This document shows positions 7,957 to 48,548 of a DNA stretch of 64,000 nucleotides, one piece after another. A program made the translations under genes and the position numbers. The notes below the pieces were generated by a model. That model did no database searches. It saw nothing but the letters and a program-made list of their open reading frames with translations, and was not told where the DNA came from. The DNA comes from Rhodobacteraceae bacterium Alg238-R152 (lineage in GTDB: Bacteria; Pseudomonadota; Alphaproteobacteria; Rhodobacterales; Rhodobacteraceae): assembly GCA_900537125.1 (NCBI GenBank), contig UNRJ01000001.1, positions 62,001-126,000 on the forward strand, given 5' to 3'. Positions within the stretch are counted from its first letter, which is position 1; each line of letters starts with the position of its first letter.

Positions 7957-8494
7957 GTTGATTGCCAAGACACCATGTGAGGGTTTGTTGCCGCTGACCG
8001 TTGGTGGTGTGTCGTTGACCGAAGACTTGCCGGTGAGCCTGACAATGATAACTGTGCGCAAGGAACGGTTGGAGGCCTGTTCTGAATTGCTAAAGTCCGC
8101 GCATGGCATGGCCATGCCAAAGCCCAATCGGGCAACTGGCACGACGGACGCTCGGGCGGTATGGTTTGGGCGTGATCAAGCCTTGCTGGTTGGGCCAGCT
8201 GTAAACTGGAGCCTCAAGAACGAGGCAACTGTGGTGGATCAGAGTGACGCCTGGGCGGTTGCACGGCTTGAAGGTGGGGGCGCCGAGGAGGTGTTGGCGC
8301 GGTTGGTGCCGGTGGATTTGCGGGGGGCATCTTTCAAACGCGGACACACGGCGCGCACGATGCTGGGGCATATGATGGTGTCGGTTACCCGTGTAGGGGA
8401 ACAGGCGTTTCAGATCATGACTTTCCGCTCGATGGCGAAGACACTTGTTCACGATTTGCAAAGGGCCATGGAAAGCGTCGCGTCACGCGGGTAG
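7949..8494 (+). CDS. soxG: sarcosine oxidase subunit gamma
   Basis: A 181-residue protein in the SoxG position and size range. It has the moderately conserved GTTDARAVWFGRDQALLVGP and GHTARTMLGHMM segments. I chose the GTG at 7949 because it overlaps the soxA stop and follows an AGAGGGAGGGCGG ribosome-binding sequence; the next ATG would remove conserved N-terminal sequence. SoxG resembles the aminomethyltransferase fold and completes the heterotetramer. Confidence 0.9.
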   Translation: MVELIAKTPCEGLLPLTVGGVSLTEDLPVSLTMITVRKERLEACSELLKSAHGMAMPKPNRATGTTDARAVWFGRDQALLVGPAVNWSLKNEATVVDQSDAWAVARLEGGGAEEVLARLVPVDLRGASFKRGHTARTMLGHMMVSVTRVGEQAFQIMTFRSMAKTLVHDLQRAMESVASRG

Positions 8495-8528
8495 TCTCGT
8501 TGGGTCTAAAGTGATTCAGGAGGCCTTG

Positions 8529-8864
8529 ATGGTCCGTTATACTCTCGTGGCGCTGATGCTGAGCAGTGCAGCCTATGCAGCCGATGGCAAAGAAGACACC
8601 TGCAAATATCAGGGTCAAGTGATCAAGGCGATCCAAGATGCCCGTCTTGAGAAGGTGAAAGCCAAAGACTTAGAAGAGTATCTGCTTGCCAATGAGCCGA
8701 CCTGGCCGGAGAACTACAACGCGGCAATCTTGCATTTTGCGCCGGTGGTCTATGGTGCCAAAAAACGGGACCTGAAAAAAATCGATCTGGGCGCACAAGT
8801 TGAACAACAGTGTCTGGACAATTGGGAGCAAATTCAGGAAATGCAGAAGTCCGCTTCAAACTGA
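8529..8864 (+). CDS. small secreted protein, unknown function
   Basis: A 111-residue protein with a signal peptide (cleavage after AYA, about residue 17). The mature part is charged, contains two cysteines (DTCKYQ and QQCLDNW) that may pair, and has no recognised domain. It starts 34 bases after soxG on a CAGGAGG ribosome-binding site and ends 15 bases before dnaG, so it could be the last gene of the sox operon or part of the dnaG transcript. Confidence 0.75.
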   Translation: MVRYTLVALMLSSAAYAADGKEDTCKYQGQVIKAIQDARLEKVKAKDLEEYLLANEPTWPENYNAAILHFAPVVYGAKKRDLKKIDLGAQVEQQCLDNWEQIQEMQKSASN

Positions 8865-8879
8865 CTTAATCGGATCAAC

Positions 8880-10841
8880 ATGTCCCTACCGCCCGGATTC
8901 TTAGATGAGCTTCGCAGCCGTACCTCCATCGTTCAGGTGGTGGGGCGCAAGGTCATGTGGGAAGCGCGCAAGTCCAATCAGGGCAAAGGCGACATGTGGG
9001 CGCCGTGTCCGTTTCACCATGAGAAAACCGCGTCTTTTCATGTGGATGATCGCAAGGGGTACTACTACTGCTTTGGCTGCCAGGCCAAAGGCGACGCGAT
9101 CAAATTTGTGACCGAAACCGAGAATGTTGGGTTTATGGAGGCGGTGGAAATTCTGGCCGAAGAAGCCGGGATGACCATGCCCAAGCGCGACCCACAGGCG
9201 CAGCAGAAAGCCGACCGCCGCACACAGCTGTCGGATGTCATGGAAATGGCGGTGCAGCATTTCCGGCTGATGTTGAACGCCGGGGCAGGGAGCGAGGCGC
9301 GAGCCTATCTTGATCGGCGCGGTATGGCGCAGGAGACGCGGGATCGATTTGACATTGGCTTTGCACCGGATGGCTGGCAGGGCCTTTGGGATGCGCTGAC
9401 CGGCAAAGGGGTGGACCCTGATCTGATCATTGGCGCTGGGCTGGCAAAACCGTCCAACAAAGGTGGCAAACCCTACGATACGTTCCGCAATCGCATAATG
9501 TTTCCCATTCGCGATGCGCGGGGTAAGTGCATCGCCTTTGGCGGGCGGGCGATGGACCCCAATGATAACGCCAAATATCTCAACAGCCCAGAGACCGAGT
9601 TGTTTGATAAAGGGCGTAGCCTCTACAATCACGGTCCGGCACGGGAAGCCGCAGGCAAAGGCCAACCGCTGATTGTGGCTGAGGGCTACATGGATGTGAT
9701 TGCCCTGTGCGACGCGGGATTTGGTGCGTCTGTGGCGCCGCTAGGGACTGCTGTGACCGAAAATCAATTGCAGTTGTTATGGCGCATCAGCGATGAGCCA
9801 ATTATCGCGTTGGATGGAGACAAGGCCGGCATTCGGGCCGCGATGCGGGTTGTTGATCTTGCGTTGCCGCTTCTTGAGGCGGGCAAGTCTCTGCGCTTTG
9901 CAGTGATGCCGGAGGGGCAAGACCCGGACGATCTGATCAAAGCCAAAGGTGCAAGCGCTGTGCAGAAGGTTCTGGATGCCGCGATGCCAATGGTCAACCT
10001 GCTGTGGCAACGCGAGATAGAAGGCAAGGTGTTTGACAGTCCTGAGCGGCGGGCGGCATTGGACAAACTTCTTAAAGAGAAGATCAAGCTGATCAAAGAT
10101 CCGTCGATCCGTAGTCACTATGGCGAAGCAATCAAGGAGTTGCGGTTCCAACTGTTTCGTCCCCAACGGGGCGGCGGAAAAGGCAGTTTTAAGCGCGGTA
10201 AATGGAATGCCGAGCCCGTGGTTATGTCCAGCTCAAAAGTCTCGATGTTGGCCGCCAGCGAAGGTCCGGTGGAACTGCGGGTGCGCGAAGCGGTAGTCCT
10301 TGCCGTGGCTTTGGTGAACCCTGAGCTCCTGGATGACTTTGAGTACGAAATCGAAAGCATGAACTGCCTGGACTATGACAACGCTCAGTTGCGCGATGTT
10401 CTATTGCGCTATGCCAATACACCGGATCCGCGCGGCAACGTAGAAATGGCTTTGGGACCGGAGATGGTTGAAAACCTGCTGCGCCAACCCCATGTGGCGA
10501 TTACCCCGGCTGTTCGTAAACCTGGCGACATGGCACTTGCCCGTATGACGCTGACCGAAGAGCTCGCAAAGCTCAAGACAGCGCGGGGACTGAGCGAAGA
10601 AATCGCCGAAGCCGAAGAAGACTTGATGGGTGTTGTTGACGAAGCAATGACCTGGCGGTTGGGCCAAGCGGCGGAGGCACGAAACAAGGCGATGAAAAGC
10701 GGTCTCGACGAAGAAGGCGGGGGCGATTTTGCTGTTGGGGACAACGGCGCGCCAATTGACAAAGATGAACGCGCAGCGCTGGATGCGTTGCGTGAAATGA
10801 TCGATTTTACGAGGGGTGGGAAGCCGCCACGCCGGGGATAA
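8880..10841 (+). CDS. dnaG: DNA primase
   Basis: A 653-residue primase that makes RNA primers for replication. The N-terminal CHC2 zinc-binding domain has Cys43, His46, Cys64 and Cys67. The catalytic core with its TOPRIM segment (VAEGYMDVIALCDAGF and ALDGDKAG) lies near residues 262-330. The C-terminal part, from about residue 440, is the DnaB-interacting region. It precedes rpoD, the common macromolecular-synthesis order. Confidence 0.97.
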   Translation: MSLPPGFLDELRSRTSIVQVVGRKVMWEARKSNQGKGDMWAPCPFHHEKTASFHVDDRKGYYYCFGCQAKGDAIKFVTETENVGFMEAVEILAEEAGMTMPKRDPQAQQKADRRTQLSDVMEMAVQHFRLMLNAGAGSEARAYLDRRGMAQETRDRFDIGFAPDGWQGLWDALTGKGVDPDLIIGAGLAKPSNKGGKPYDTFRNRIMFPIRDARGKCIAFGGRAMDPNDNAKYLNSPETELFDKGRSLYNHGPAREAAGKGQPLIVAEGYMDVIALCDAGFGASVAPLGTAVTENQLQLLWRISDEPIIALDGDKAGIRAAMRVVDLALPLLEAGKSLRFAVMPEGQDPDDLIKAKGASAVQKVLDAAMPMVNLLWQREIEGKVFDSPERRAALDKLLKEKIKLIKDPSIRSHYGEAIKELRFQLFRPQRGGGKGSFKRGKWNAEPVVMSSSKVSMLAASEGPVELRVREAVVLAVALVNPELLDDFEYEIESMNCLDYDNAQLRDVLLRYANTPDPRGNVEMALGPEMVENLLRQPHVAITPAVRKPGDMALARMTLTEELAKLKTARGLSEEIAEAEEDLMGVVDEAMTWRLGQAAEARNKAMKSGLDEEGGGDFAVGDNGAPIDKDERAALDALREMIDFTRGGKPPRRG

Positions 10842-33264: not shown

Positions 33265-33341
33265 GCCGCCTTAGCTCAGTTGGTTAGAGCACTGGTTTGT
33301 GGAACCAGGGGTCCCCCGTTCGAGCCGGGGAGGCGGTACCA
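33265..33341 (+). tRNA. tRNA-His (GTG anticodon)
   Basis: A complete 77-base cloverleaf: acceptor GCCGCCT/AGGCGGT, D-arm AGCTCAGTTGGTTAGAGC, anticodon stem CTGGT with loop TTGTGGA, and T-arm with GTTCGAG. The CCA is encoded. The base at -1 is T, not G, the discriminator is A, and base pair 1-72 is G-T. Loss of G-1 in tRNA-His is an established alphaproteobacterial trait. Confidence 0.96.
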
Positions 33342-33561: not shown

Positions 33562-34191
33562 TTACGGCGCCTTGCCCTGTGCCAACCAATGTTCAAAAAG
33601 TGCAATGTCGCTGGCTGGCCAAGGGCCATCACTTGGCATTGTGCCATCTTTCAAACGGGCTAGGATCAATTCTCCATATTGGCAAACCGCCTCATACGAC
33701 CCGAGATCCAGATCGCGCACCATGATCATCATCGCAATGTCATAGGGGCGAAAGAGGGGGCGAATGTCGCGCGCATATTGAGGTCGGATGTCCTCAGATA
33801 AAGTCAGTTTGGGCAGCTCAAGGATCTCTGGAGAGCCGATCCTAGGCTGCAAAAGCATCTGTTTGGTGTTGCTCTGTGCGTGACAGCACACCCCCGCCAG
33901 CGGTTGGTCTGGTCCCCAGAAATTGGCGAGATCCACAGCTTTTAGAACGGTGTCAGCGCTGACGCGGGTCAGCACCGGCAAAGACGTGGCAAAAGAGTCC
34001 GGTGGGGTGCCAGTCAGATCATAAGCAAGAATACCGTCCTTGGGTGGCAGGCGGTAGTGATGCGCGGTGAGTGTGGGCGCGCGCCAGCCGGAGGAAATGG
34101 CGCGCGCATCCACCTGTATCAGCAGATTGGGGGGCTGTGTCTCTTGCAACGATAGCGTGACGGCATCAATGGCGTAGATGCGTTGGTTCAT
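33562..34191 (-). CDS. 209-residue protein of unknown function, companion of the S1 protease
   Basis: No signal peptide. The C-terminal 75 residues read DIRPLFRPYDIAMMIMVRDL, then a YEAV segment, ILARLKDGTMPSDGPWP and IALFEHWLAQGKAP. I know similar C-terminal segments only as an unassigned domain found near oxidative enzymes, so this is a loose recognition. A GVCCHAQ stretch is not a haem-binding CXXCH. It begins 40 bases after the protease stop, so the two are likely co-transcribed. The upstream in-frame extension overlaps the protease and is rejected. Confidence 0.7.
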   Translation of the reverse strand: MNQRIYAIDAVTLSLQETQPPNLLIQVDARAISSGWRAPTLTAHHYRLPPKDGILAYDLTGTPPDSFATSLPVLTRVSADTVLKAVDLANFWGPDQPLAGVCCHAQSNTKQMLLQPRIGSPEILELPKLTLSEDIRPQYARDIRPLFRPYDIAMMIMVRDLDLGSYEAVCQYGELILARLKDGTMPSDGPWPASDIALFEHWLAQGKAP

Positions 34192-34231
34192 GGGCAGGCG
34201 TCCTTTGGCAATCCTTGTGCACTTGGCGTGG

Positions 34232-35629
34232 TCAGGCGGTGACGCAATAGCCGCGGGCGCGGTACGCTTCGGCGATCCGGAAACACACGCCGCGGAAAGT
34301 GACCTCTTTGGACAGCACATCGATGTCCGGAATAACACCGTCGCGCAGGAAGTCGGTTGAGGCCAAAATGATGGTATGCAGTGCCTCTCCGGTTTCGCCG
34401 TAGTCAAAGTAGTCGGCCACGGCATCTTCAATATCGAACGGGATTTGAGAGAATTCCGGGTGTTGCGCATGTAAACTGTGCAGGAGTTCTGACCAGATAT
34501 TGCCTTGGACGCTGTACACCTGATTGGAGTCAGTGACGCTGTGCGGCACAAATGGATGGGTTGGGCGCAGCATGCCGGTCATCAACGACATGTGTGGCGT
34601 GGTTTTGGCAGAGGCAGCATTGTCTTTTGGCTTGGAAACTTGGTTTTGCACGTCACAAACAGTTGCAAGCCGCAGGTCAAGCCGCTCAAGCACACGGTCC
34701 ATGTGGCAGGCCAAAGCGCAGTCGCCTTCGGGCCAGTCGTCTCCTTCGCCGGCCATATGCAAACCCACGGCGGCCCCGGTATCAGGATCTACCCAGCAGG
34801 CCCCGCTGTCCCCAGGCAGGGACAGTGCTGTTTTGGGAGCAGCAATGTCCTGGGGTACGAGGCGGAACCCATCCACTTCCACAGTCTTGGTTGTGCCGTT
34901 TGTTTGGCTGTGTACCACTTTATAGGTGCCAATCCCGTCTACACGCGCTTGGGTCAACCCGGTGGTGCGGCCATATTTGCAGAGAACCCGCCCGAGCGCG
35001 GTTGGCGCCACGCCGGTCAGCGACAGATTGAGTTGCTTGAGAGCGGGTTGCCATGGAGTAGCCCCCGTCAATAAGGCAAAAGCGGCATCGCCATGGTGCG
35101 ATAACATAGATTTGCTCAGGCGGGCAATTGGCAGGTCGGAGATGCTGTTGCCATAGACCAGATCGCTGTCAGCCCCGTCTGGGGAGGACAACACATGCCA
35201 GTTGGATAGGATGCCTGGCGCACCGGTTGTGCGGTCAATGGCAATGGCGCCAATGGTGCCTGCCTCTGCGCCGCGCCGTTGACAGGGGCTACCGGACAGA
35301 AGGGCGGGCGCATAGGTGCTGTGGCCATCACCTTGATCGCGATGAACTTTATAGGTGCCGGCGACCACATCGACCGGAAAGCCGTTGATTCTGCTTACAA
35401 TGCACTGGCCAGGATCAAGTTCGTCTTCAGGAAGTTTGGCATCGACGTGAACGCGTAGACTTACTTTGTTGGTTGGAAGCCCGCCCATATGTTTGAAGCC
35501 AATGTCGTAACCCGTCACCTCAGGATGATTGCGGTACATGTCACGCAGCGCCTCTAACGCGTCTTGGCGGAGATCTATGGCAACGGAATGTGCCACGGCA
35601 TTGTGGTCTGTTGGGCGGGGCTGGGACAT
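34232..35629 (-). CDS. trypsin-like (S1 family) serine protease
   Basis: A 465-residue protein with no obvious signal peptide. The catalytic triad is readable: His145 in LSNWHVLSS, Asp181 in HHGDAAFALL, and Ser275 in LPGDSGACWVD. GRTTGLTQARVDGIG is the usual mid-domain motif and AAVGLHMAG follows the Ser loop. An N-terminal domain of about 115 residues (KVSLRVHVDAKLPEDEL) and a C-terminal 140 residues have no recognised family. A GGAGGTTCC ribosome-binding site precedes the ATG. Divergent from the ycaO-like gene. Confidence 0.85.
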   Translation of the reverse strand: MSQPRPTDHNAVAHSVAIDLRQDALEALRDMYRNHPEVTGYDIGFKHMGGLPTNKVSLRVHVDAKLPEDELDPGQCIVSRINGFPVDVVAGTYKVHRDQGDGHSTYAPALLSGSPCQRRGAEAGTIGAIAIDRTTGAPGILSNWHVLSSPDGADSDLVYGNSISDLPIARLSKSMLSHHGDAAFALLTGATPWQPALKQLNLSLTGVAPTALGRVLCKYGRTTGLTQARVDGIGTYKVVHSQTNGTTKTVEVDGFRLVPQDIAAPKTALSLPGDSGACWVDPDTGAAVGLHMAGEGDDWPEGDCALACHMDRVLERLDLRLATVCDVQNQVSKPKDNAASAKTTPHMSLMTGMLRPTHPFVPHSVTDSNQVYSVQGNIWSELLHSLHAQHPEFSQIPFDIEDAVADYFDYGETGEALHTIILASTDFLRDGVIPDIDVLSKEVTFRGVCFRIAEAYRARGYCVTA

Positions 35630-35776
35630 TGGAACCTCCTGTTTGGTAGTCTTTGAGATAAACTTGCCAAACCAAGCGTTATTCTTGCGTGATTTGCGTT
35701 AATCACCTTGTAGAGTTGAGCGAGGCGCGCGCCGTTTGACGGCAACTAAGGGCGTGGCAACAGGGAATCAGGCATT

Positions 35777-36829
35777 ATGTTCAAGGAGTTACGGGAGTTT
35801 GAGCGGCCGCAGGGTGGGGACTTGCGCTTGCCCACAGTGACTCCGGCCTTTTGTGTGCCTGTCTTGCAGCAGCTTGCGTATGTGTTTCTTGGGCGGCCCC
35901 GGTGTATACCAGCGATGGTTGTCGCAGGCGGTGTGCTGGTCGATGGTACGCCGGTCACGGGCGCTGGAGACACGCACTCGGCGGCGTTGGTCCGGCTGGC
36001 TGGTGAGGCGGCAGAGCAATTGGGGTTGCGGGCTGTGGTGCCGGGATTGGCCAAGGAGGGGCCAATTGAGGCACGGGGATTTGCCGGACAGACAGTTGTT
36101 CAGGTGGCTCGCGAGATATTGCCGGTCGCGGACACCGAGACCGCTGGGTTTTCCGAAGGTCTGGCGGCGCATACGGACGCGATGGCAGCTCAGCGACATG
36201 GGGCCTTGGAGTTGTTTGAAAGAGACGCCGCTGCGCATTGGTGGGCCGGGATAACCCAGGCTGTGGATTTGTTGGGTGTTGAAACGCTTGTTACCGAGGT
36301 TTTGGGGGCACGTCAGAGCCGTCACACGCGGGTGCTTGATGTAACCTGTGACACGGGGGTTCCGGTGGTCGTGGCAGCATCATTTGATGAAAGCGGCAGC
36401 GGGTTTTGTTTTGGCGCGGCGGCTGGGGGAACGTTGCAGGCAGCCGCAACTTCGGCATTGCGGGAATTGGGGGCGTCAGAGTTTGGCCAGCTCTTAGAAC
36501 AATCGCGGGGAGGAACTGCGGCGCAGACAAGTGGCGCGCTCACCGTTGAGACGCTGACATTGGACGCACTTGATGCCCTGTTTGTGGCACGCAAAGTTCC
36601 TCTTGAGACACAATTCCAAGTGCGCGGCCAAATCAGCGAAGGCCGCTGGCCAAAAGTTTTTGCAGCGAATGGGATTGGTATTGTCGATCTGGGTTGTGTT
36701 GCGGGGCAGTTTTGGGTCATCAAAGCAGTGAGCGCTACATTGCAGCCGGGGCGGGAAACACAGGTTTGCCAACGGTTTCAGACAGCGCTATTGGGGACAA
36801 AACGACGGACGCAGGGACCTCTTTACTGA
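35777..36829 (+). CDS. YcaO-like family protein
   Basis: A 350-residue protein. The two YcaO ATP-binding segments are present: GAGDTHSAALVRLAGEAAEQ at residues 62-81, and GFSEGLAAHTDAMAAQRHGA then LELFERDAAAHWW at 124-156. YcaO enzymes use ATP to cyclise or thioamidate peptide backbones, or act in ribosomal protein S12 thiolation. No TfuA, dehydrogenase or E1-like partner, and no precursor peptide, is seen nearby. The next gene's ATG overlaps its stop, so they form an operon. Confidence 0.82.
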   Translation: MFKELREFERPQGGDLRLPTVTPAFCVPVLQQLAYVFLGRPRCIPAMVVAGGVLVDGTPVTGAGDTHSAALVRLAGEAAEQLGLRAVVPGLAKEGPIEARGFAGQTVVQVAREILPVADTETAGFSEGLAAHTDAMAAQRHGALELFERDAAAHWWAGITQAVDLLGVETLVTEVLGARQSRHTRVLDVTCDTGVPVVVAASFDESGSGFCFGAAAGGTLQAAATSALRELGASEFGQLLEQSRGGTAAQTSGALTVETLTLDALDALFVARKVPLETQFQVRGQISEGRWPKVFAANGIGIVDLGCVAGQFWVIKAVSATLQPGRETQVCQRFQTALLGTKRRTQGPLY

Positions 36830-38856
36830 TGGAGCAGAACCAGACCAATTCTGCGCAGCTCGGCACGGTTTCGGAGCGGCTTCAGATTGACATCATCGGC
36901 GGGTTTCAGGCCCACTGCGCCGATGCGCGTGTGACCATCAAAAAGAAAAAAGCTGCCGCGATATTGGTGCTGTTGTCGTTGTCACCGGACTTGCGTTTGT
37001 CACGCGAAAAACTGCGCGGGGTTTTGTGGCCTGACAGCGCCGAGTCAGCAGCCCAAACCAGTTTGCGCAATGCGGTTTGGGCACTCAAGTCGTCTTTGGT
37101 GGAAGCCGGATTTGACGGTGTATTTACCGATCGCAATGACATCTGGCTTGCGCAGGAGCGGGTTGATGTTGATCTGGACAGGCTATTGGAGGCCGCAGAA
37201 CAGGGCGAGATGGCCCTGGTTTTGCGGGTTGATCCTCAGAAAGTGACGCAGTTTGATCGCGATCAGATGGAGATCAACGATGTATTTGCCGCGCGGGTGA
37301 CAGAGGCGGTACAGCATGTGAGCGGGCTGATGCGGCATCGTTTGAATGCTGCCGCTGATGCGGCAAGCACCCAAGACTCGCGCTTAGACATTCTACAATT
37401 TGTGGCGGGCATGGACTCGGCTGACGAAGGTGCAGCGCGGCGGCTGATCAAGGCCTATTGGCAGAATGGTCAAATGGCAAACGCGCTGACGGTGTATCAG
37501 TCGCTTTGGAGCTTGCTGGATCAAGAGTATGGTGAAGAGCCGTCGGACGAAACTCAGCAGCTGATTGTTGATATCAAGACAGGTGGTGGCACACAGGCCC
37601 CCAAGACGTTGCGGCCCTGTATTGTGGTCGCGCAGGCCACCTATGGCCACCTCACAGCCCAAATGGCCGGCGATGCGGAGCAACTGCGCCAAGCGCTTTG
37701 CGCCAATTTGGCGCGGTTCCGGGAGTGGCAGATATTTGACGCCGCTTTGATGGCGCCAGATGCCCAAGTGGGGGAGCTGGGCGCGGCAAGCTATTCGCTG
37801 GTGTTGCAGTCGCAGGATCGCGGCGAGGGTTTGTCTTGCCGTGTGGTGCTGTCAGATCGCAGCAGTGGTGAGCTGTTGTGGTCGGAGGTGTTGACGGATG
37901 CTGGGCACATGGCCTTGGCGGAAGGGCCGGGTGCGGCGGAGCGGTTGGCGGTGGCGTTGAACTTGCATCTCTCAGCCTTCAAGGGGCCTCTGTCCGCCAC
38001 CAACACAACCGCAGCCAGTGCCTACGAACGTTGGGTCGAGGCGCAAGGGCATATTCTGCAATTTACGCTGGGGAGTTGGCAAACAGCCGAAGGGTTGCTC
38101 GACGCGCTGATCCGAGATTATCCGGACTTTAGTCGGGCTTACTCCAGCCGCGCGTCGATCGAGAACATGCGCCAGATTTCATTCCCTGGGCTCTATAGCT
38201 CGCCTGACTTACATGTCGAAGGGTTGCGATTGGCGCGGCGGGCAATTGAGTTGGATCCCATGGACAGCCGTGGGCAGTTGGCGATGGGCTGGTCTGCAGC
38301 CATGTCACGGCAGTTTGAGCAAGCAGAATTGGCGTTTGATCTGGCGTTTCAATACAATGAAAACGACCCTTGGACGATGACGTCCTCGGCCGTTGGGCTG
38401 GCGTTTTGTGATCAGCTGGACGCCTCAAATCGATTGTTGGATCTGCTGTTCAAGTTGAACTTTCGACTACAGCCTTCGCATTGGAGCTATGTGGCAGCGA
38501 CGCGGTTTTTGGCTGGAGACTATGCGGGTTGTATTGCGGCATCAGAGAAGTCTGAAGAGATTTCTCATGATGTGCCTGCCTGGCACGCGGCTGCACTTGG
38601 GTTGGTTGGACGATTGTCTGAGGCAGCGTCTGTGGCGCGCCGGTTCGAAACCATTGCGCGGGCCAACTGGGTGGCGGATGGCGCACCGGAACGCGCGGAA
38701 ATCACACGCTGGCTGGTATCCGGTTTTCCAATCCGAAATCGCAAAGCTTGGCTTGCGTTGCGTGATGGGTTGCGCTTGGCGGATATGCCGGTGCCTGACT
38801 TGATTCAAAGCGACAAAATTGCACTTGGATATCAATTGGATCCCGGCACATCCTAA
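36829..38856 (+). CDS. SARP/BTAD-type transcriptional activator with TPR-like C-terminus
   Basis: A 675-residue protein. Residues 17-110 look like an OmpR/SARP winged helix (KKKAAAILVLLSLSPDLRLS, then EKLRGVLWPDS and LRNAVWALKSSL). Residues 118-270 resemble the bacterial transcriptional activator domain (AARRLIKAYWQNGQMANALTVY). From about 420 on there are helical TPR-like repeats (ARRAIELDPMDSRGQLAMGW). Such regulators usually control a neighbouring biosynthetic cluster. Translation is coupled to the ycaO-like gene. Confidence 0.8.
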   Translation: MEQNQTNSAQLGTVSERLQIDIIGGFQAHCADARVTIKKKKAAAILVLLSLSPDLRLSREKLRGVLWPDSAESAAQTSLRNAVWALKSSLVEAGFDGVFTDRNDIWLAQERVDVDLDRLLEAAEQGEMALVLRVDPQKVTQFDRDQMEINDVFAARVTEAVQHVSGLMRHRLNAAADAASTQDSRLDILQFVAGMDSADEGAARRLIKAYWQNGQMANALTVYQSLWSLLDQEYGEEPSDETQQLIVDIKTGGGTQAPKTLRPCIVVAQATYGHLTAQMAGDAEQLRQALCANLARFREWQIFDAALMAPDAQVGELGAASYSLVLQSQDRGEGLSCRVVLSDRSSGELLWSEVLTDAGHMALAEGPGAAERLAVALNLHLSAFKGPLSATNTTAASAYERWVEAQGHILQFTLGSWQTAEGLLDALIRDYPDFSRAYSSRASIENMRQISFPGLYSSPDLHVEGLRLARRAIELDPMDSRGQLAMGWSAAMSRQFEQAELAFDLAFQYNENDPWTMTSSAVGLAFCDQLDASNRLLDLLFKLNFRLQPSHWSYVAATRFLAGDYAGCIAASEKSEEISHDVPAWHAAALGLVGRLSEAASVARRFETIARANWVADGAPERAEITRWLVSGFPIRNRKAWLALRDGLRLADMPVPDLIQSDKIALGYQLDPGTS

Positions 38857-38872
38857 AGTAGTTATCTATCCC

Positions 38873-39244
38873 TTACACACATTTGCGCAGGGCGTAATCT
38901 GCAATGCGTTTGGAGCGAAAATTATGCTCTTCTTCGGATGGTGTGACCAAGGTTGCGTTGTAAGCTTCGTCATAGAAATCCGGCAGCGTGTACGGGCTGG
39001 GTGGGGGCAGATCGAGGTCGTCAGGGTGCGGCAGCATGATGCTCACCACTTTTTGGTCCGGTGCGTTGAAGATTTGCAGCAGTTCCGTGTCTTTGAACTC
39101 TTCTGCCAGCTCGGCGACATTGCTGGGCACTTGGGCGCGGAAATCACCCACGGTTTTAGGCACGCTCTTAGCATCGCGTGCCCAACCTTGAAGGACTTCT
39201 CCCATCTTCAGGTAGTTTTTGATTTTAATTTCATAAGGGTCCAT
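38873..39244 (-). CDS. 123-residue protein of unknown function, companion of the haem peroxidase
   Basis: A soluble, acidic protein with no signal peptide or membrane segment; the Pro-rich LPHPDDLDLPPPSPYTLPDF is its most distinctive part. It starts 32 bases after the peroxidase stop with a GGAGGAAG ribosome-binding site, so it is co-transcribed and may be a chaperone, subunit or substrate of the peroxidase. No family recognised. Confidence 0.75.
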   Translation of the reverse strand: MDPYEIKIKNYLKMGEVLQGWARDAKSVPKTVGDFRAQVPSNVAELAEEFKDTELLQIFNAPDQKVVSIMLPHPDDLDLPPPSPYTLPDFYDEAYNATLVTPSEEEHNFRSKRIADYALRKCV

Positions 39245-39276
39245 TTGTGTTCTTCCTCCGTGTTTGAACAGTGTTT

Positions 39277-40854
39277 TTAAGTGATTTGAGTGGCTGCAAT
39301 CAGCGAAGGCATGTCGCGGATTGGCGTGTCGCCATAGGCCGCGACTTCAAGCGCTTGGGCAATTTTTTCGTCGTCGGTTGTGGGGGTGTCATCCGCAAAG
39401 GCGGGTGCAAAAGCCGCGCCAAGGATCAACCCTCCAAGCGGGCCATAGGTGGCGCCATTGTTCCCATCAATCTGCGCTTCCAGCGCGAGGAAAGTGACCA
39501 GCGGCAGGTTGGCGGTGATGGTGGCCTTATCGGCATCCGACATGGGTGGTTTGTGGCCGGGACGCACAGCCGCTTCGAGCGCAGCCATGCCGGTGGTGGC
39601 GATCCGGTCATAATGCGTGGCGGCATCAAACGGCACCGCGAGGCCGTGGGCGCGCATTGTCTCTGCGGCGGAGTGGATGAGATCTTGTACTCGGCCCAGA
39701 CCAATCCACTTCTCGCGCACCAGATCGCGCATGGCTGTGCCGGCCGGATAGATGTCTTTGGTTGGTTTGCCTGCGGTGGCAAGCGTCATGCCATCGGCAG
39801 TATGTGGGCCGAAGCGGATCGCCCAATTGAAGTTTTCTGGCAAGGGAGCGCCGGGAACGGTGAAGAAGAGCTTCCAGTCGATTTTCCAGTCAATAGGCGT
39901 GGGCACCATGCCCGGTTCATGCAGGGAAGAATGGTTGATGATCTTGCGCAGTTCCACTTCGCCGAGGGTGTGATCCCCAACACCGTTGTTAAGCATGTAC
40001 TCCGGGCGCACCATGCTGTGGGCCATGCGGGCGATACCGTAGGCAAACAGATCGTTGGTTTCAGAGGGCGTGCGGCCAAGCGGTTGCAGAGTTGATGTGC
40101 CGTCAAACAAGCTGATGATGTCCTTGGGCATAATGCGCGGCAACAGGTCGTGGCGCAGGATACGACGGTAAATGCGGGCAGTGGCAAGGCGCGCCACGCG
40201 GGCGCGGTGGTGGTTTGGAATTGGAGTTTGGCTGCCGGGCATCATGGCGGTGGCGGATTTGCCCACCAGCGTGTTGTAGACGGCGTGAAAAAACGCAGTG
40301 AGCTGGGCCAAAATGTTGTTGTCGTCGTTGCGCGGGTCCGGGATCAACACGTCGGTAAATGGACCATCCGCGTCGGGACCATCCGCGCTGTAGCGGTTGC
40401 GTGGCAGATCCGCAGACGGTGCCAAACGGTCATCAGACATCGTCCCCGCCGGGCGGAATTTGCCCAGCCGCAAGCGGTGCGTGCCGTCTTGATGTTGCAT
40501 GTCAAAGACGTGGGGGCAGACAACAGGGCCGCCACCAAACAAAGTTTCCAAGGCCAGTTTTTCTTGCCGAAGGTTTTGTGAGCGCCCGCCGAAGTCGTCA
40601 AAAGTACGCGGGACCAGTGAGCTGAACACCAGATCATGACCCGCCAGCTGAAAGAGATAGGAATACCCCGCAGGGACACCGAGGTGATCGCCCTGCGGCT
40701 GATTGAGAAACCCACGAGACGCGGTGGTGGCGCTGTTGTTGTTGTTGAGCAATGTGGCGAGGTAGATGGTCATCTCTTCGGTGAGAGCAGATGGCTGCGT
40801 GGTGTCGCCGGTTGCGGCGAATACATCATCAACTTCGAGATCTCGGTGCGACAT
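39277..40854 (-). CDS. animal-type haem peroxidase
   Basis: A 525-residue protein of the peroxidase-cyclooxygenase superfamily. The distal His region is YLFQLAGHDLVFSS (His73), the catalytic Arg is probably Arg175 in DPRNDDNNILAQL, and the proximal His is His279 in ARMAHSMVRPEY. A long C-terminal region follows. No signal peptide is seen, so export, if any, is by another route. Family members oxidise halides or organic donors with peroxide. The ATG at 40854 is preferred over a GTG 30 bases upstream. Confidence 0.85.
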   Translation of the reverse strand: MSHRDLEVDDVFAATGDTTQPSALTEEMTIYLATLLNNNNSATTASRGFLNQPQGDHLGVPAGYSYLFQLAGHDLVFSSLVPRTFDDFGGRSQNLRQEKLALETLFGGGPVVCPHVFDMQHQDGTHRLRLGKFRPAGTMSDDRLAPSADLPRNRYSADGPDADGPFTDVLIPDPRNDDNNILAQLTAFFHAVYNTLVGKSATAMMPGSQTPIPNHHRARVARLATARIYRRILRHDLLPRIMPKDIISLFDGTSTLQPLGRTPSETNDLFAYGIARMAHSMVRPEYMLNNGVGDHTLGEVELRKIINHSSLHEPGMVPTPIDWKIDWKLFFTVPGAPLPENFNWAIRFGPHTADGMTLATAGKPTKDIYPAGTAMRDLVREKWIGLGRVQDLIHSAAETMRAHGLAVPFDAATHYDRIATTGMAALEAAVRPGHKPPMSDADKATITANLPLVTFLALEAQIDGNNGATYGPLGGLILGAAFAPAFADDTPTTDDEKIAQALEVAAYGDTPIRDMPSLIAATQIT

Positions 40855-41296
40855 TGGCTCAGTCCTTTTGGTTGCTGAGACCACTCTAACGAGAAATTCG
40901 CATTTGAGATAAATTCAAAACAAGCCGCGCAAGGACAAACATTCTCGAAGAAAATAAGGGGAAAAGTAGGGTGATGCTGCCATATGTGATGAAGTTACGT
41001 GAACGGAATCACGATTTATTAACGCCCGATACGAGCAAATCACCACGCTAGATGCTGCCATTTCTGTCAGGGTATCAGGATGATTTTGGCGTGGAAAACC
41101 GTTGGAAAAACGCAGATCAGCGCGTAAACTGTTTCCCTGTTGGGTAAAATGACGCAAATTTAGCGTCACTGTTTCCCTGATGGAGCCGGTGGACGCCCAA
41201 CGCAGCAAAATCCTTGCGTGGCGTTCCAAGCTGTTGGACGATCAAGATGAACTATTAACCATAATTTCTTTTCTCGGCGCTTTTGGGAGAGCAGGC
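40855..41296. other. 442-base intergenic region between the peroxidase and FecR operon
   Basis: This AT-richer region separates divergent transcripts. It holds two direct repeats, ACTGTTTCCCTGTTGG at 41128-41143 and ACTGTTTCCCTGATGG at 41168-41183, 40 bases apart and each preceded by GCGT. A minus-strand open frame (40915-41229) has no visible ribosome-binding site or domain. Promoters for both flanking operons are probably here; no convincing -35/-10 pair was singled out. Confidence 0.6.
41128..41183 (+). repeat. pair of 16-base direct repeats upstream of the FecR/PKD/cyclase operon
   Basis: The copies at 41128-41143 and 41168-41183 differ at one base and are spaced 40 bases start to start, about four helical turns. 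This is compatible with a regulator binding one DNA face. Confidence 0.55.
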
Positions 41297-43657
41297 ATGC
41301 GACCCCCTGCGGACGACCAAAATCCAATGAAGACAATTATGCGTTGGTTGGGCCTGCTGGCCGCCTGCGTTGTGGGATTCTGTGTGCTGCCGGTACGGGC
41401 AGAGGTGGACCCGCTCGATACACCCTATTTAGAAGTGGCCTATGACGGGGATGAGACCCTGCGCGATTTTGTGGCGCGGCATTTGAATGATCCTGACTTA
41501 TGGCCAACAGTGCTCAAACTTAACAATTTGGGCTCACCTGCGGATTTGGTTCCCGGGGCTGTGCTGCACTTACCTGTGGCCCAGGTGGCGGCGGCAGATG
41601 CGGCGTTGGCGGAAGCGTTGGTGGCCATTCAGAAAGCCACCTCTGAGGGCGCGCGGCTGTTTGCACCACAGGAAATTGGTGCGGCCATCGTCAATCGGGA
41701 TGCTGCGCTTGGCTTTCGGGGCGATGGCGCGTGGCGCAATGTTGTGCGCTTTGCTGGTACGGCCACCGAGCACGCAACCGAGGCGTTTGAGATTGCGCTG
41801 GCACAGCGGGATCGGGCCGCAGAGGCGCTCATTACGGACATTCACGGGCGGGTTGAGGGACGGGAGCCTGTGGAGGCCGCTTGGACCAACCGGTCCCTCA
41901 ACGATGTGTTAATTGAGTTTGAAAAACTTCGCACGCTGACCAACTCCACCACACAGGTGACGTTTCGCGATCTAAGCCGGCTGCGGCTGAACCCCAATTC
42001 CAACGCCACAATTCAGCGCATGCGATCAGATCCGCTGACCGGCAAAGAGGTCACTAAAGTGTCGCTGGCCAATGGCGATTTTTATGCGTTGCTCAATCAG
42101 CTCTCGGATCGGGACAGTTTTGAAATTGATGTGCCTGGTATTCAAACCACCACCGACAGTGATGATTTCTGGATCAAGAAAGAGGCCGATAAGGCGCTCT
42201 TTGTGAACTACGATGCGGCGGCTTTGGACATCGAAGCAGCGGCAACCCGGGTCTCGCTAGGTCAGGATGAAGGGGTGGTCATAACGGAAGCGGGTGTTGC
42301 GACGCGGGCAGAGGTGTTGGACCGGCCGCTATTAAGTGCCCCAATGGACCTCGAGGATGTCTATGGGGCAGGGGTGCGATTGGCGTGGCAGCTGTATCCG
42401 GAGGCAAGTGGCTACTGGTTTGAGGTGGCGGGGGATCCGGGATTTAATCAGATGATTGCGACGGAATGGGGCATCAAGGAGCTTGGCTTTGAGGTGGCTG
42501 GGTTGGCTCCGGGGGCGTATTATTGGCGCGTGGCGGCGCTGGATGAGTTGGGTCTGCCTGGCAAGTGGAGCGAAGTGCGCGGGTTTGAGATGCGCCAGGA
42601 CAGCACACCGCCGTTTTTGACTTTGTTGGCTCCCTCCAATGGCGTGCTCGTAGAGCTGCCGGAGGTGGAGGTGTTGGGTGCCTCGGAAGTGGGTGTGGTG
42701 CTGACCGTGAATGGTGTTCCCACAGACGTGGCGGCGGACGGCGGGTTTGCAACCACCTTGACCCTGTTGCCCGGTGCCAATCAGATCGTGCTGAAAGCTG
42801 TTGATCCAGCGGGGAATGTTTCTCAAAAACGCGGGCAGTTGCGCTATGTACCGCGGCTGGCGACAACCATGACGCTTAACCCGGATATGGCACGGGATCG
42901 CGATGAGCGGTTGGTGAGCCGCAATACGGAGATGACGGTCTATGGGGCGACCTCGGCAAAACCTGGCCAGCAGGTGGTCTTGCGAGACGCCGCGGGTGCC
43001 GAAGTGGGAACCACACGGATCTCGGCTGGGGGAGTGCTGGCGATCACTGTGCCGGTGGCCGACAATGTGGCTGAGTATCAGGTGGAGGTCTTGTCCGAAG
43101 GGGGTGTCTCAACCGGCACACTGATGTTTGCGGTTGTGCGTGACAACGAGGCACCACAAGTGTTGTTAGATGTGCCTCCACCGCGCGCAACCTTAGACAC
43201 TGCGCTCGATCTGACGGGCACATTGGGGGACGCGGTGTCACTGCAGCTCAACGGGGCTCCACAAGATATTTTTGACGGCAGTTTTGCCATGCAGGTGGCC
43301 CTCGCCGAAGGCCAAAACATGCTGGAACTGCGCGCGACTGATGCGGCCGGAAACGTGGGAGTTTTGGTGTTGGAGACCCGTTTGGATCTGACCCCTCCGG
43401 AGATTGTAGATGTTCGCATATGGCGCCCTCAGGGAGAGGTGGGGCCGGTGGAGATTGTGGTGGAGGCGCTAGACGACGGTGGCCTGCGCCAAGCCGCACC
43501 GTATTTGGCGCAGGTCGGCGACCAAGAGTTTGAAGGGTATCTGCGCTGTGACAGTAGGCGCGGGATTTGCCGCGCCACGGTGCCGCCGACACCGGGCGAG
43601 ATGCGGATAATTGAAGTGGTGGTACAGGACTATGCGGGCAATGAGGTGATCCAGTGA
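41297..43657 (+). CDS. LysM/FecR/Ig-like repeat envelope protein
   Basis: A 786-residue exported protein (hydrophobic signal, cleavage near VRAE, residue 35). A LysM-like domain lies at 44-94 (GDETLRDFVARHLNDPDLWPTV, ending LVPGAVLHLP). A FecR-like domain is at about 215-335, with VSLANGDFYALLNQLSDRDSF. A fibronectin-like segment (350-430) and several Ig-like modules (VDPAGNVSQKRG; TDAAGNVGVLVLETRLDLTPP) complete it. I prefer ATG 41297 because GGGAGAGCAGGC precedes it; ATG 41327 lacks a ribosome-binding site. First gene of a three-gene operon, probably binding peptidoglycan or glycans. Confidence 0.78.
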   Translation: MRPPADDQNPMKTIMRWLGLLAACVVGFCVLPVRAEVDPLDTPYLEVAYDGDETLRDFVARHLNDPDLWPTVLKLNNLGSPADLVPGAVLHLPVAQVAAADAALAEALVAIQKATSEGARLFAPQEIGAAIVNRDAALGFRGDGAWRNVVRFAGTATEHATEAFEIALAQRDRAAEALITDIHGRVEGREPVEAAWTNRSLNDVLIEFEKLRTLTNSTTQVTFRDLSRLRLNPNSNATIQRMRSDPLTGKEVTKVSLANGDFYALLNQLSDRDSFEIDVPGIQTTTDSDDFWIKKEADKALFVNYDAAALDIEAAATRVSLGQDEGVVITEAGVATRAEVLDRPLLSAPMDLEDVYGAGVRLAWQLYPEASGYWFEVAGDPGFNQMIATEWGIKELGFEVAGLAPGAYYWRVAALDELGLPGKWSEVRGFEMRQDSTPPFLTLLAPSNGVLVELPEVEVLGASEVGVVLTVNGVPTDVAADGGFATTLTLLPGANQIVLKAVDPAGNVSQKRGQLRYVPRLATTMTLNPDMARDRDERLVSRNTEMTVYGATSAKPGQQVVLRDAAGAEVGTTRISAGGVLAITVPVADNVAEYQVEVLSEGGVSTGTLMFAVVRDNEAPQVLLDVPPPRATLDTALDLTGTLGDAVSLQLNGAPQDIFDGSFAMQVALAEGQNMLELRATDAAGNVGVLVLETRLDLTPPEIVDVRIWRPQGEVGPVEIVVEALDDGGLRQAAPYLAQVGDQEFEGYLRCDSRRGICRATVPPTPGEMRIIEVVVQDYAGNEVIQ

Positions 43658-43670
43658 GGAGGGGGCACGA

Positions 43671-46600
43671 ATGAATGTTCTGAAACTTGGGATTGCAGTT
43701 TTGTCCATCTGTGGGGGCTGGCTGCATGTGGCAAAGGCACAGGATTTGGCGCCGCCGGCGGAATTTGGACAGCTGGTGGTCTATGGGTCCGCAGCCCCCA
43801 CACGCGAGGGAGATGTTGATCACAAAGAGGTTGTATTTTTCAGCATTCCCAAGCAATTGCAGAAAAGAGTTTATGTGCGTGTGTTTGATCCAGAGATGTG
43901 GGGGCAGCATGATTTCCGCTATGGTGGCGGGGGCAATTCACACACGTTGTACAATGTGTATGGCGGAGAAGGCGCGCGCAGTGCGGTGGCGCTGCCCACC
44001 CCGGTGGCGGATGGCAGCACACCCATAAAACTGCGCCGCGAGGAGATACTAGCCCCGCAACCGGGAAAGATTTTGCGCACCGCAGAATTTGGCTCTGACG
44101 CACAGACGGATCAGACGTGGGTGTCATTGGGCAGTGTGCGTGCACGGCAAGGGGACGTGATTGGCGATCGGGCGTGGTTCCGATTGGAGGTGATTGGCGC
44201 AGACGGCGATGACGGCAATGGGTTCAATGTAGATGTGAGCCTGTTAAGAGATGCGCATCGGCGGCCTGACGGGCTAGAGATGATTGCCTATCAACCGACC
44301 ATTCGATGGCCTGGGTCAGGGCCAGGCACACGGGTGGAGTTTACTGCGCCTAAGGGCGACTTAACAGTGCAGAACTTCGACGGCGCGCGCGGGGATTTGC
44401 GGCTCAACCGGATGTATTCTGACTACGCGCTGCAGGCGTCAGGGCAGAATGTTTGGGCCAGCGAGATTGTGGCGGCAGGGGACTTAGCCGGGGAGGATAT
44501 ACTATCGCTGACTTTGCAGGGGGGATTTGAGACACCCAATGATGTGACCCTGAGCCTGTTTGATGGTGACGGGCACGCTGTGCCGGTGTTGATGCCGCCC
44601 CGGTTGGCCCCGGTGCCGGAGCGACCAGAAGCGCTGCCACGCGCACGCGAATTGGCGGATTGTTCCAGCGTGGCGTTTGATGGCAGCGTGCCCGGCGCTG
44701 ATCCGCTACTGGCTTACCAATGGGATTATGGGGACGGAGCCAGCTCTGAGGAGCCGGTGATTGTGTACAGCTACGGGATGCCGGGAACGCATGATGCGCG
44801 GTTGCGAGTGCGCTTGCCAGGCACGCGGGCAGCGCGCGGGGCAGAGGCCAAGGTGCCCGTGCATGTGCGGGTTGCGCCACGGGCGGTGGCGGGGGACGCG
44901 GTCACCGTGGCACCGGGCGAAGTGGTGCGGTTTTCTGGTGCGGGGTCGCTGCCGTCTGACAGTCCAATCACACATTACGGGTGGGCTTTTGGCGATGGCG
45001 CGGTGGCGGACACGTTAGAGGCCAGCCATGAGTATTCGGAACCGGGGGCCTATCGCGCGGTGTTGCGTGTGATGGATGACAGCCCACATCCCTGTAATTT
45101 TGGTGTGGCAACGCGGTTGGTGACAGTGAACTTCCCGCCAGTTGCTGAGGCTGGAACGGATGTACGCACCATCGTGGGGCGCGCGGTCTCCTTGGATGGG
45201 GCGGCAAGCTATGATGTCGACGGCAGCATCACGGGGTACACTTGGGACATGGGAGATGGTCAAAGTTCGGATGGCAGCCACGTGACCCATGTGTATCAGG
45301 AACCGGGTGTCTATCAGGTTGGTTTGACCGTTCGCGATGACAGCGGCGTGGCCAATGCCGCAAGCGCCGATCAGCTGACCATTTGGGTGAACGCACCGCC
45401 GATCCCGTTGATAGAGGGGCCAACTGATCCGGTGGCAATTGGCCAGGCGGTGATCCTTGATGGCAGTGGGTCCAGCGATGCCGATGGCGTGATCCTGTCC
45501 CATCTATGGGACTTTGGTGATGGTGCCATGGGCGAGGGGCCGGTGGCGGAATACGCTTGGGCCAACCCCGGTGTCTATGAGGTCACGCTGACGGTGACAG
45601 ATGACAGCGGCACACAATCAGCAACGCAACAAACGCAGTTTGAGATGGTTGTGAACAGGCGACCGATGGCAGACGCAGGGCCGGATCAATTTGTGACCAG
45701 CTCCGAAGTTCAATTTGACGGCAGCGCCTCACGCGACAGTGACGGTCAGATTACGCGCTATGTATGGGAATTTGGAGATGGGCAAGCATTGGAAGGATTA
45801 AGTCCGCGTCATTTCTATGAGACTTCAGGAATTTACGAGGTGTCTTTAACGGTTTTTGATGACAGCGGTGCGCCTCAAAGCAGCCATCGGGACACGCTGC
45901 AGGTGGTGGTCAACAGCCGGCCAATTGCCGATGCAGGGCCAGCCCTGACAGTGGCACCTGGAGAGGAATTTGTGCTCGACGGGGGGGCATCGGTGGATCC
46001 AGATGGCGGGGTGGCACGGTTTCTGTGGCAGTTTGAAGATGGTCGTACCCAGGACGGCATGAGAGTGTCGCAGCGGTTTGACACGCCGGGGGTGCAGCGC
46101 GTGCTCTTGCAAGTCACGGATGACTTTGTTGGGGGCGGTGCGGTGGATGAAAGTGAAGTGCTGATCACCGTCAACGCCCCCCCAGTGGCGCAGGCTGGTC
46201 CGGACCTGCGTGTCGCGCCGGATGAGACCGTGCGGTTTGATGCGCGTTCCAGCTTTGATAGCGACGGTGGGCTGATGGATTACCGATGGGAGTTTGACGA
46301 TTTGCAAGCGCCCTTGGAGGCCGCGGTTGTGGAGCGGGCCTGGCCGGTGGGGGGCGTGTACAGCGCGCGGTTGGTGGTGCGTGACGGAAGTGGCGTGGCG
46401 AATTCCACGGCGCAGGACAACGTGACCATTTGGGTGAACCATCGCCCAGAGGCCGATGCGGGACCGGTGATTGATACGGACCGTTTGCTGGTGACTTTGG
46501 ATGCCAGCGGCAGCAGTGATGCGGATGGGGATGCCCTGATGTATCGCTGGGACTTTGGCGACGGCACGCCAACTGTCGCTGGACGGCAGGTCAGCCATGT

Positions 46601-48548
46601 GTTTCCCCGTGCAGGCAGTTACCCTGTTACGTTGCGCGTGGATGATGGTACCGGGGTGTCTAATGCACAGGATGTGGACGCCACCACGGTCATCATAAAC
46701 GCCGCGCCGGTGGCCAACGCCGGCGGCAACAAAGAGGTCTGCTCTGGGCAGTCGATCTTGTTTGATGCCTCTGCCAGCGGGGATGAGGACGGTGACCTTT
46801 TGAAGTACCTCTGGGACTTCGGAGATGGCACCCAATCTGATGTGATTAACCCGACAAAAAAATATGAAATGCCAGGGTCTTACCCTGTGACTCTTAAGGT
46901 GGAAGACGAAAGCGGCGGCCAGCGCGGTGCGGACTTGGATCGGATTGCCGTTATTGTGCGCGAGGGTCCAATTTCGGATGCTGGACCGGATATGACTGTG
47001 TGTGTCAATCAAGACGTGCGCATGGATGGCAGTGGCTCCACAGATGCCGATGGTTCGGTGAATGCATTTGAGTGGACGTTTGGCGATGGCAGTCGGGCCA
47101 GCGGGGCGCGCCCTGTTAAGAGTTTTGACCGGCCCGGAGACTATGCCGTCACGCTGACCATCACGGGGGATGCGATTGGAGATTGTAGCCCATTGGACAC
47201 GGATACGGTGTCCGTGCGGGTCTTGCCGGCGCGCAGTCAAACAATTGATGCGGTGGCGCGGGCAGCGGTGGCCAGTGACGTGAGATTTGCCGCCGTGCTG
47301 GGGGACGAAACCGGCGCAGGTGAGCCGGTGCGGTATGATTGGGCGTTTTCTGACGGAGGCACCGCCAAAGGCGCGGAGGTGGCATATGCCTTTGCCGAGC
47401 CGGGCGCGTATTTGGCCACGCTGACCACCACGCTTGAGGGGGGCACGCAGGATTGCGGTCAACTGGTTTCGCGTCACAAAATTACGATTAACGCGGCGCC
47501 ATCTCCGGTGGCGGAGGCTCCAGACCAGGTTGCCGCCGGTGTGTTGGCACGGTTTGATGCCAGTGCGGCTCAGGATAGTGACGGGGTGATCACGCGCTAC
47601 CTTTGGGACTTTGGCGATGGAACGAAGGCCGAAGGTGTTTCGGTGACACATCGTTATGAGACGGCTGGGCTTTATTCTCTATCGCTGGAGGTGATTGACG
47701 ACGCGGGCGTGGCCAACAGCCGGGCCACTTGGTCGCGAGAGGTGGTTGTCAATCCGGCGCCTTTGACCGGAGTCGATGTGGCGGGCGCGCTCTGTGCCGG
47801 TGTCGCGAATGACTGGGCGCTGTCGGTTGGCACCGACGTTTCGGTGGCCTGGGACTTTGGTGACGGGACCACAGGGAAAGGCGCCGCTGTGACACATCAG
47901 TATGAGGTGCCAGGTCTCTATCCAATCACGGTGTCTACCGATGACGGCAGAAGCTTGGCCAACTCAAATCAGTTGGAGCAGGTTTATGCACGGGTGAACG
48001 CACCCCCTACGGCTGATGCGGGGCCGGATCGTGTGGTCTGTCCCGGTGACGAGGTGGTATTTCGGTCGGGGGCCTATGATTTGGATGGCAAGATCACAGA
48101 CATGCTGTGGCGGTTTTCGGATGGGGTGGATCTCAGCGGGGAGATGGTCAGCCGACGTTTTGACACGGCCGGCCTTGTCACTGCCACTTTGATTGTGACG
48201 GACGACAGTGGAGCAAGCTGTGCAACCGGAGCAGATACTGCGGACATTTTGGTGAATTCTGCTCCTGTTGTCAGTGCCGGAAAGGATCGGACCACACCGG
48301 TGGGCGCGGTGCATGATGTACTGCGGTTTGACGCCACCGATGTCAGCGACCCGGACGGACATGGCGTGGAAATCAGCTGGCAATTTGGCGATGGCGCAGG
48401 TGGCTACGGCGCGGTGGTGCGGCATGGTTATGGTGCGCCGGGGACCTATACGGCCACAGTGACCGCGCAAGACAGCACGGGGCTGGCCTGTGGGGTTGCG
48501 CAAGACAGCGTGCAGGTGGAGGCCGTGGCGCGCCATGAGGAGCAGTGA
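43671..48548 (+). CDS. giant secreted PKD-repeat protein
   Basis: A 1625-residue protein with a signal peptide (cleavage after AKA, about residue 23). An N-terminal 300-residue region of unknown fold is followed from about residue 330 by about 15 PKD-like repeats of 80-95 residues. Each has a variant of DGSxSxDxDG, WDFGDG, PGxYxVTLTVxDDSG and VNxxPxAxAGPD. No C-terminal sorting signal, calcium-binding RTX nonapeptide or membrane anchor is seen. A GAGGAGGGGG site precedes the ATG, 13 bases after the previous gene; the stop overlaps the cyclase ATG. Likely an extracytoplasmic adhesin-like or sensing component. Confidence 0.88.
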   Translation: MNVLKLGIAVLSICGGWLHVAKAQDLAPPAEFGQLVVYGSAAPTREGDVDHKEVVFFSIPKQLQKRVYVRVFDPEMWGQHDFRYGGGGNSHTLYNVYGGEGARSAVALPTPVADGSTPIKLRREEILAPQPGKILRTAEFGSDAQTDQTWVSLGSVRARQGDVIGDRAWFRLEVIGADGDDGNGFNVDVSLLRDAHRRPDGLEMIAYQPTIRWPGSGPGTRVEFTAPKGDLTVQNFDGARGDLRLNRMYSDYALQASGQNVWASEIVAAGDLAGEDILSLTLQGGFETPNDVTLSLFDGDGHAVPVLMPPRLAPVPERPEALPRARELADCSSVAFDGSVPGADPLLAYQWDYGDGASSEEPVIVYSYGMPGTHDARLRVRLPGTRAARGAEAKVPVHVRVAPRAVAGDAVTVAPGEVVRFSGAGSLPSDSPITHYGWAFGDGAVADTLEASHEYSEPGAYRAVLRVMDDSPHPCNFGVATRLVTVNFPPVAEAGTDVRTIVGRAVSLDGAASYDVDGSITGYTWDMGDGQSSDGSHVTHVYQEPGVYQVGLTVRDDSGVANAASADQLTIWVNAPPIPLIEGPTDPVAIGQAVILDGSGSSDADGVILSHLWDFGDGAMGEGPVAEYAWANPGVYEVTLTVTDDSGTQSATQQTQFEMVVNRRPMADAGPDQFVTSSEVQFDGSASRDSDGQITRYVWEFGDGQALEGLSPRHFYETSGIYEVSLTVFDDSGAPQSSHRDTLQVVVNSRPIADAGPALTVAPGEEFVLDGGASVDPDGGVARFLWQFEDGRTQDGMRVSQRFDTPGVQRVLLQVTDDFVGGGAVDESEVLITVNAPPVAQAGPDLRVAPDETVRFDARSSFDSDGGLMDYRWEFDDLQAPLEAAVVERAWPVGGVYSARLVVRDGSGVANSTAQDNVTIWVNHRPEADAGPVIDTDRLLVTLDASGSSDADGDALMYRWDFGDGTPTVAGRQVSHVFPRAGSYPVTLRVDDGTGVSNAQDVDATTVIINAAPVANAGGNKEVCSGQSILFDASASGDEDGDLLKYLWDFGDGTQSDVINPTKKYEMPGSYPVTLKVEDESGGQRGADLDRIAVIVREGPISDAGPDMTVCVNQDVRMDGSGSTDADGSVNAFEWTFGDGSRASGARPVKSFDRPGDYAVTLTITGDAIGDCSPLDTDTVSVRVLPARSQTIDAVARAAVASDVRFAAVLGDETGAGEPVRYDWAFSDGGTAKGAEVAYAFAEPGAYLATLTTTLEGGTQDCGQLVSRHKITINAAPSPVAEAPDQVAAGVLARFDASAAQDSDGVITRYLWDFGDGTKAEGVSVTHRYETAGLYSLSLEVIDDAGVANSRATWSREVVVNPAPLTGVDVAGALCAGVANDWALSVGTDVSVAWDFGDGTTGKGAAVTHQYEVPGLYPITVSTDDGRSLANSNQLEQVYARVNAPPTADAGPDRVVCPGDEVVFRSGAYDLDGKITDMLWRFSDGVDLSGEMVSRRFDTAGLVTATLIVTDDSGASCATGADTADILVNSAPVVSAGKDRTTPVGAVHDVLRFDATDVSDPDGHGVEISWQFGDGAGGYGAVVRHGYGAPGTYTATVTAQDSTGLACGVAQDSVQVEAVARHEEQ

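Follow-up and report, generated by a model that had tools for sequence, protein, structure and literature searches.

The locus described here raises the question of what a YcaO-domain enzyme acts on when it is encoded beside a SARP-type regulator, an animal-type haem peroxidase and a trypsin-like protease. The initial annotation of the window (the whole 64,000-nucleotide stretch of DNA analysed) saw three gene pairs on alternating strands and proposed a single pathway producing or maturing a modified peptide or protein. Checked against the sequence, all six ORFs are present in the order and on the strands it had given, and the cassette is laid out as follows (window positions).

33562..34191, minus strand: 209-aa accessory protein without a known family (ORF, homologue comparison)
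34232..35629, minus strand: trypsin-like protease, NARROW LEAF 1-like (NAL1-like), accessory and lineage-restricted (family profile)
35677..35694, plus strand: first copy of the putative common operator, CGTTA-N6-CGTGATT, within the divergent promoter region
35777..36829, plus strand: YcaO-domain enzyme without an E1-like domain (Pfam, profile)
36829..38856, plus strand: SARP-type regulator, BTAD plus TPR (Pfam)
38873..39244, minus strand: small protein of 123 aa, predicted to fold, candidate substrate/precursor, ending in ...KRIADYALRKCV
38876..38908, minus strand: conserved C-terminal motif R113-IADYALRKC-V123 of the 123-aa protein
38879-38881, minus strand: Cys122 codon of the 123-aa protein
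39277..40854, minus strand: animal-type haem peroxidase (family profile)
41007..41024, minus strand: second copy of the putative common operator, ahead of the peroxidase operon

Gaps of 40 bp separate the 209-aa gene from the protease gene and of 32 bp the 123-aa gene from the peroxidase gene, and the SARP start codon sits in a TGATG overlap with the YcaO stop. The cassette is flanked by a tRNA-His (33265-33341), and a FecR/Ig-like protein and then a 1625-aa protein with many PKD-like repeats are encoded at 41180-48548, where the Pfam scan covered the FecR/Ig-like protein only.

The YcaO, SARP/TPR regulator and peroxidase genes occur together at about 109 alphaproteobacterial loci, not all of which are independent because the collections overlap (85 distinct peroxidases entered the distance analysis). 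These core loci are found in Rhodobacterales, Bradyrhizobium, Mesorhizobium, Roseomonas, Belnapia, Stappia, Reyranella and others, with plasmid-borne modules in Phaeobacter inhibens, Mesorhizobium huakuii and Paroceanicella. Gene order varies between module types, and no exporter, partner or other extra gene recurs in the modules across genera. In a phylum sample, peroxidase matches outside the Alphaproteobacteria lack YcaO and SARP neighbors.

Pairwise distances of the four core proteins (the small protein included) are correlated over 85 loci (r = 0.92-0.97; 0/500 permutations). Given that several module types occur in Shimia (three within the genus) and that some modules are located on plasmids, these matched distances do not reflect vertical descent only. 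Gene fusions are also present: the Shimia relative L283 encodes a YcaO-peroxidase fusion of 818 aa (7453-9909), followed by a Cys-X small gene and the SARP, and in L033 the small protein is fused to the peroxidase. The L283 fusion may reflect a sequencing error that removed a stop. The cassette is thus one conserved, often mobile system and not a chance cluster. The earlier proposal of linkage as one unit is supported by a core that recurs across many genera, by a YcaO-peroxidase fusion and by a putative operator common to both promoters. The operative unit, however, is not the three pairs; it consists of four genes—i.e. YcaO, SARP, peroxidase and small protein. Two loci run against this reading: on a Paracoccus plasmid, YcaO, peroxidase and the Cys-X gene have no SARP close by, and at L105, where YcaO, SARP and the Cys-X protein occur together, the 20 kb examined contain no peroxidase.

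Among 25 genomes sampled from the genus, five others carry the cassette in the same order, with a homologue of the 209-aa protein detected in 3 of the 5. Identities among the Shimia cassettes are 81-87% for the peroxidase, 82-84% for the SARP, 89-92% for the 123-aa protein, 71-75% for the protease and 58-63% for the YcaO, which diverges faster than its neighbors (71-92%). Three further relatives (L057, L051 and L283) carry other module types, and S. sagamensis DSM 29734 has a close relative, L203. A tRNA-His adjoins all six Shimia cassettes (the window and L052-L056) and none of the other module types sampled, and because it recurs in this way the site suggests an insertion hot spot. The same recurrence could mean that unrelated gene pairs merely share this hot spot and that their association is incidental. 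This is very improbable, as the four-gene core also occurs on plasmids and at sites other than this one, across many genera, and shows fusions and matched divergence.

The YcaO-like and SARP/BTAD identities first proposed are confirmed by Pfam (E = 2.7e-18 for YcaO and 2.5e-8 for BTAD). The YcaO profile matches the cyanobactin heterocyclases LynD (7e-30), TruD (2e-29) and MusD (7e-30 to 2e-22 for the three), with which, as the proposed check of catalytic residues called for, the conserved Glu/Arg positions align. Specifically, E77, E80, E145, E148, R149, E230 and E235 are conserved in at least 98% of module YcaOs, and from the alignment and the known features of YcaO enzymes these Glu/Arg residues are candidate ATP/Mg ligands. 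Domain and residues together place the enzyme in the YcaO superfamily. None of the usual YcaO partners is recognized in the window, as had been noted: for an azoline-forming assignment, scans at the Pfam/NCBIfam level find no E1-like domain or recognized partner there, and the modules share no additional gene that recurs; for a thioamidating one, there is no TfuA in the window and, again, no such gene in the modules. The SGKG lysine of LynD and TruD is mostly replaced in module YcaOs, which, like the lack of a recognized E1-like partner, counts against the RiPP-like reading given below.

For the peroxidase, the window sequence alone has no match in Pfam/NCBIfam, and its proposed identity was confirmed through relatives only: An_peroxidase is matched by 18 of 21 module relatives, and the family profile matches bacterial lactoperoxidase, EPO, MPO and peroxinectin A in the PDB (1e-16 to 1e-11). 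Among its candidate catalytic residues, distal Q69/H73 and proximal H279 are invariant and R175 nearly so; this similarity and these residues place it in the animal haem peroxidase superfamily. The trypsin-like protease likewise has no Pfam/NCBIfam match from the single sequence and owes its confirmation to the family profile only (NARROW LEAF 1, 5e-6), with an invariant candidate triad (H145, D181 and S275). Apart from Shimia and Tateyamaria, only a few loci have it. The 209-aa protein has no Pfam/NCBIfam family from the single sequence, and its homologues are limited to some Shimia cassettes, Tateyamaria, L210 and L129; by eye, its C-terminal part recalls planctomycete-type cytochrome c domains without CXXCH. 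Both proteins are accessory, non-core and lineage-restricted. The single pathway first proposed is supported insofar as YcaO and peroxidase appear to act together on a peptide or protein; these two, which most modules lack, are not part of its core. PADLOC returned no matches, which gives no sign of a catalogued defence system.

What, then, is the substrate? The initial annotation saw no precursor peptide, which is probably wrong, as the 123-aa gene behaves like one. An ORF with Cys at position -2 or -3 directly follows the peroxidase gene in 103 of 109 core loci, compared with 3 of 44 usable peroxidase loci without YcaO/SARP, where it arises by chance. Cys at -2 has a background of about 2% (28/1442 ORFs of the fetched loci) and is seen in 0/109 YcaO, 0/109 SARP and 1/109 peroxidase proteins, the one being the fusion. 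The downstream Cys ORFs of L141 and L142 are shadow ORFs and were removed from the raw count (105 to 103); these two loci hold a YcaO, peroxidase and SARP variant whose small protein ends in C-A-x-C, not C-x. Searched as DNA, R-[IV]-[GA]-[DE]-Y-x4-C-x-stop has four matches in 385 alphaproteobacterial genomes, three of which are modules; the fourth is a chance match that reads TGG in place of the stop.

The 123-aa protein has no Pfam/NCBIfam family from its single sequence, nor did a family search yield a library match. Three groups of small proteins show no significant homology to one another (hhalign), yet all share the C-terminal Cys-X. AlphaFold predicts for groups I and II a folded domain, a terminal long helix and a free C-terminal tail, and a fold search with two models (pLDDT 85.5 and 79.2) gave no PDB match. 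Like a RiPP precursor, the protein has a dedicated gene and a conserved C-terminal core and adjoins modifying enzymes, and we consider it the best candidate, and very likely the substrate, of the system. Against a RiPP-like reading, candidate leaders, at 120-250 aa, are of unusual length and apparently folded and, unlike many RiPP clusters, the core has no conserved protease or exporter.

Two other roles for the small protein must be weighed. It could serve the peroxidase as an accessory subunit or maturation factor, with a functional Cys (haem contact, redox relay or disulphide) and the YcaO substrate encoded elsewhere, as its usual place directly downstream of the peroxidase and the L033 fusion might suggest. 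We regard this as unlikely, since L105 keeps the Cys-X protein beside YcaO and SARP although no peroxidase lies nearby, the small gene lies elsewhere in the module in L038, L089 and L090, and the sampled non-module peroxidases have no such partner. Alternatively, the peroxidase could be the main modifier, forming a Tyr(-7)-Cys(-2) cross-link (a macrocycle), with YcaO responsible for a second change or for something else. Haem peroxidases are capable of producing tyrosyl radicals, and Y117 and C122 are two of the three residues invariant over an alignment of 56 small proteins, although members were chosen partly by motif and this invariance is therefore biased, which the downstream-ORF tally is not. 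By contrast, group III tails (L057, L097-L100 and L190) keep the Cys without a Tyr at -7, which is thus not universal, a point that also counts against the substrate reading; with L105 again lacking a nearby peroxidase, a cross-link is unlikely too.

Joint regulation, plausibly by the SARP, had been anticipated, and a putative operator common to both promoters supports it. All six Shimia cassettes carry CGTTA-N6-CGTGATT between protease and YcaO and again upstream of the peroxidase, an 18-bp, direct-repeat-like element with CGTTA/CGTGA repeats spaced by 11 bp. The exact pattern has two sites in the 4.27-Mb genome of the window, both at module promoters, where a random 12-base pattern would be expected about 0.5 times. 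At L091, L208, L209 and in Stappia loci the operator also lies close to the start of YcaO, and L210 has it upstream of the peroxidase gene; the exact site was not found in more distant modules. A direct-repeat operator suits a SARP. The window protein has the BTAD domain by Pfam, with the winged-helix Trans_reg_C matched weakly, in relatives, and we infer that it controls both operons through this putative site.

Taken together, we consider it probable that the four genes form a SARP-controlled, RiPP-like system in which a dedicated folded protein has its C-terminal Cys modified first by the YcaO and then by the peroxidase. Specifically, the small protein would fold, its terminal long helix presenting a flexible tail with the near-invariant penultimate Cys. 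YcaO would use ATP to activate the backbone amide beside this Cys, with a thiazoline or a related backbone modification derived from the Cys as the most likely result, and an intracellular peroxidase with H2O2 would then oxidize the product, e.g. thiazoline to thiazole, or make an oxidative Cys/Tyr change; both this order of steps and the bond made are what we infer. The SARP/TPR protein would control both operons via CGTTA-N6-CGTGATT, and in Shimia and a few relatives the NAL1-like protease and the 209-aa protein would be added, perhaps for trimming. No modified product is known, which counts against this reading. The outcome may be a released peptide or a modified protein, and we tentatively consider that the Cys could become a backbone-derived group kept on the protein, which would then carry its own redox or metal-binding cofactor and yield no secreted peptide. 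If true, YcaO and an animal-type haem peroxidase would define a new class of post-translational modification in which the group is retained on the protein.

Among known systems, LynD, TruD and MusD are the best solved relatives of the module YcaO and also act on Cys in a genetically encoded substrate. In contrast to them, the module enzyme has no fused E1-like domain and has mostly lost the SGKG lysine, the protein it would act on is folded and has one C-terminal Cys, and its partner is a haem peroxidase. The peroxidase belongs with bacterial lactoperoxidase (8s6c), MPO, EPO and peroxinectin A in one superfamily and keeps the candidate Gln/His/Arg/His, but differs in being part of a conserved operon or fusion with YcaO and the Cys-X protein. 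In the open-access literature (subscription papers and preprints lay outside the search), we found no description of YcaO with a haem peroxidase. For a YcaO that has no recognized partners, the system supplies a defined candidate substrate, one residue as the target and a candidate partner for oxidation. Its range within the Alphaproteobacteria is broad and takes in Bradyrhizobium, Mesorhizobium and marine roseobacters; several carry it on plasmids, and it is thus of ecological relevance and readily transferred to a test host.

TfuA-YcaO thioamidation systems are similar in being YcaO-centred modifications of encoded substrates, and their survey includes Bradyrhizobium, with the word "peroxidase" absent from the paper (PMC8120280). 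The window module differs in having no TfuA. At L145 (8363-10454), by contrast, a YcaO gene lies beside a TfuA-like and a SARP-like gene, with no peroxidase within the stretch and no Cys-X gene, which suggests a separate SARP-associated YcaO system.
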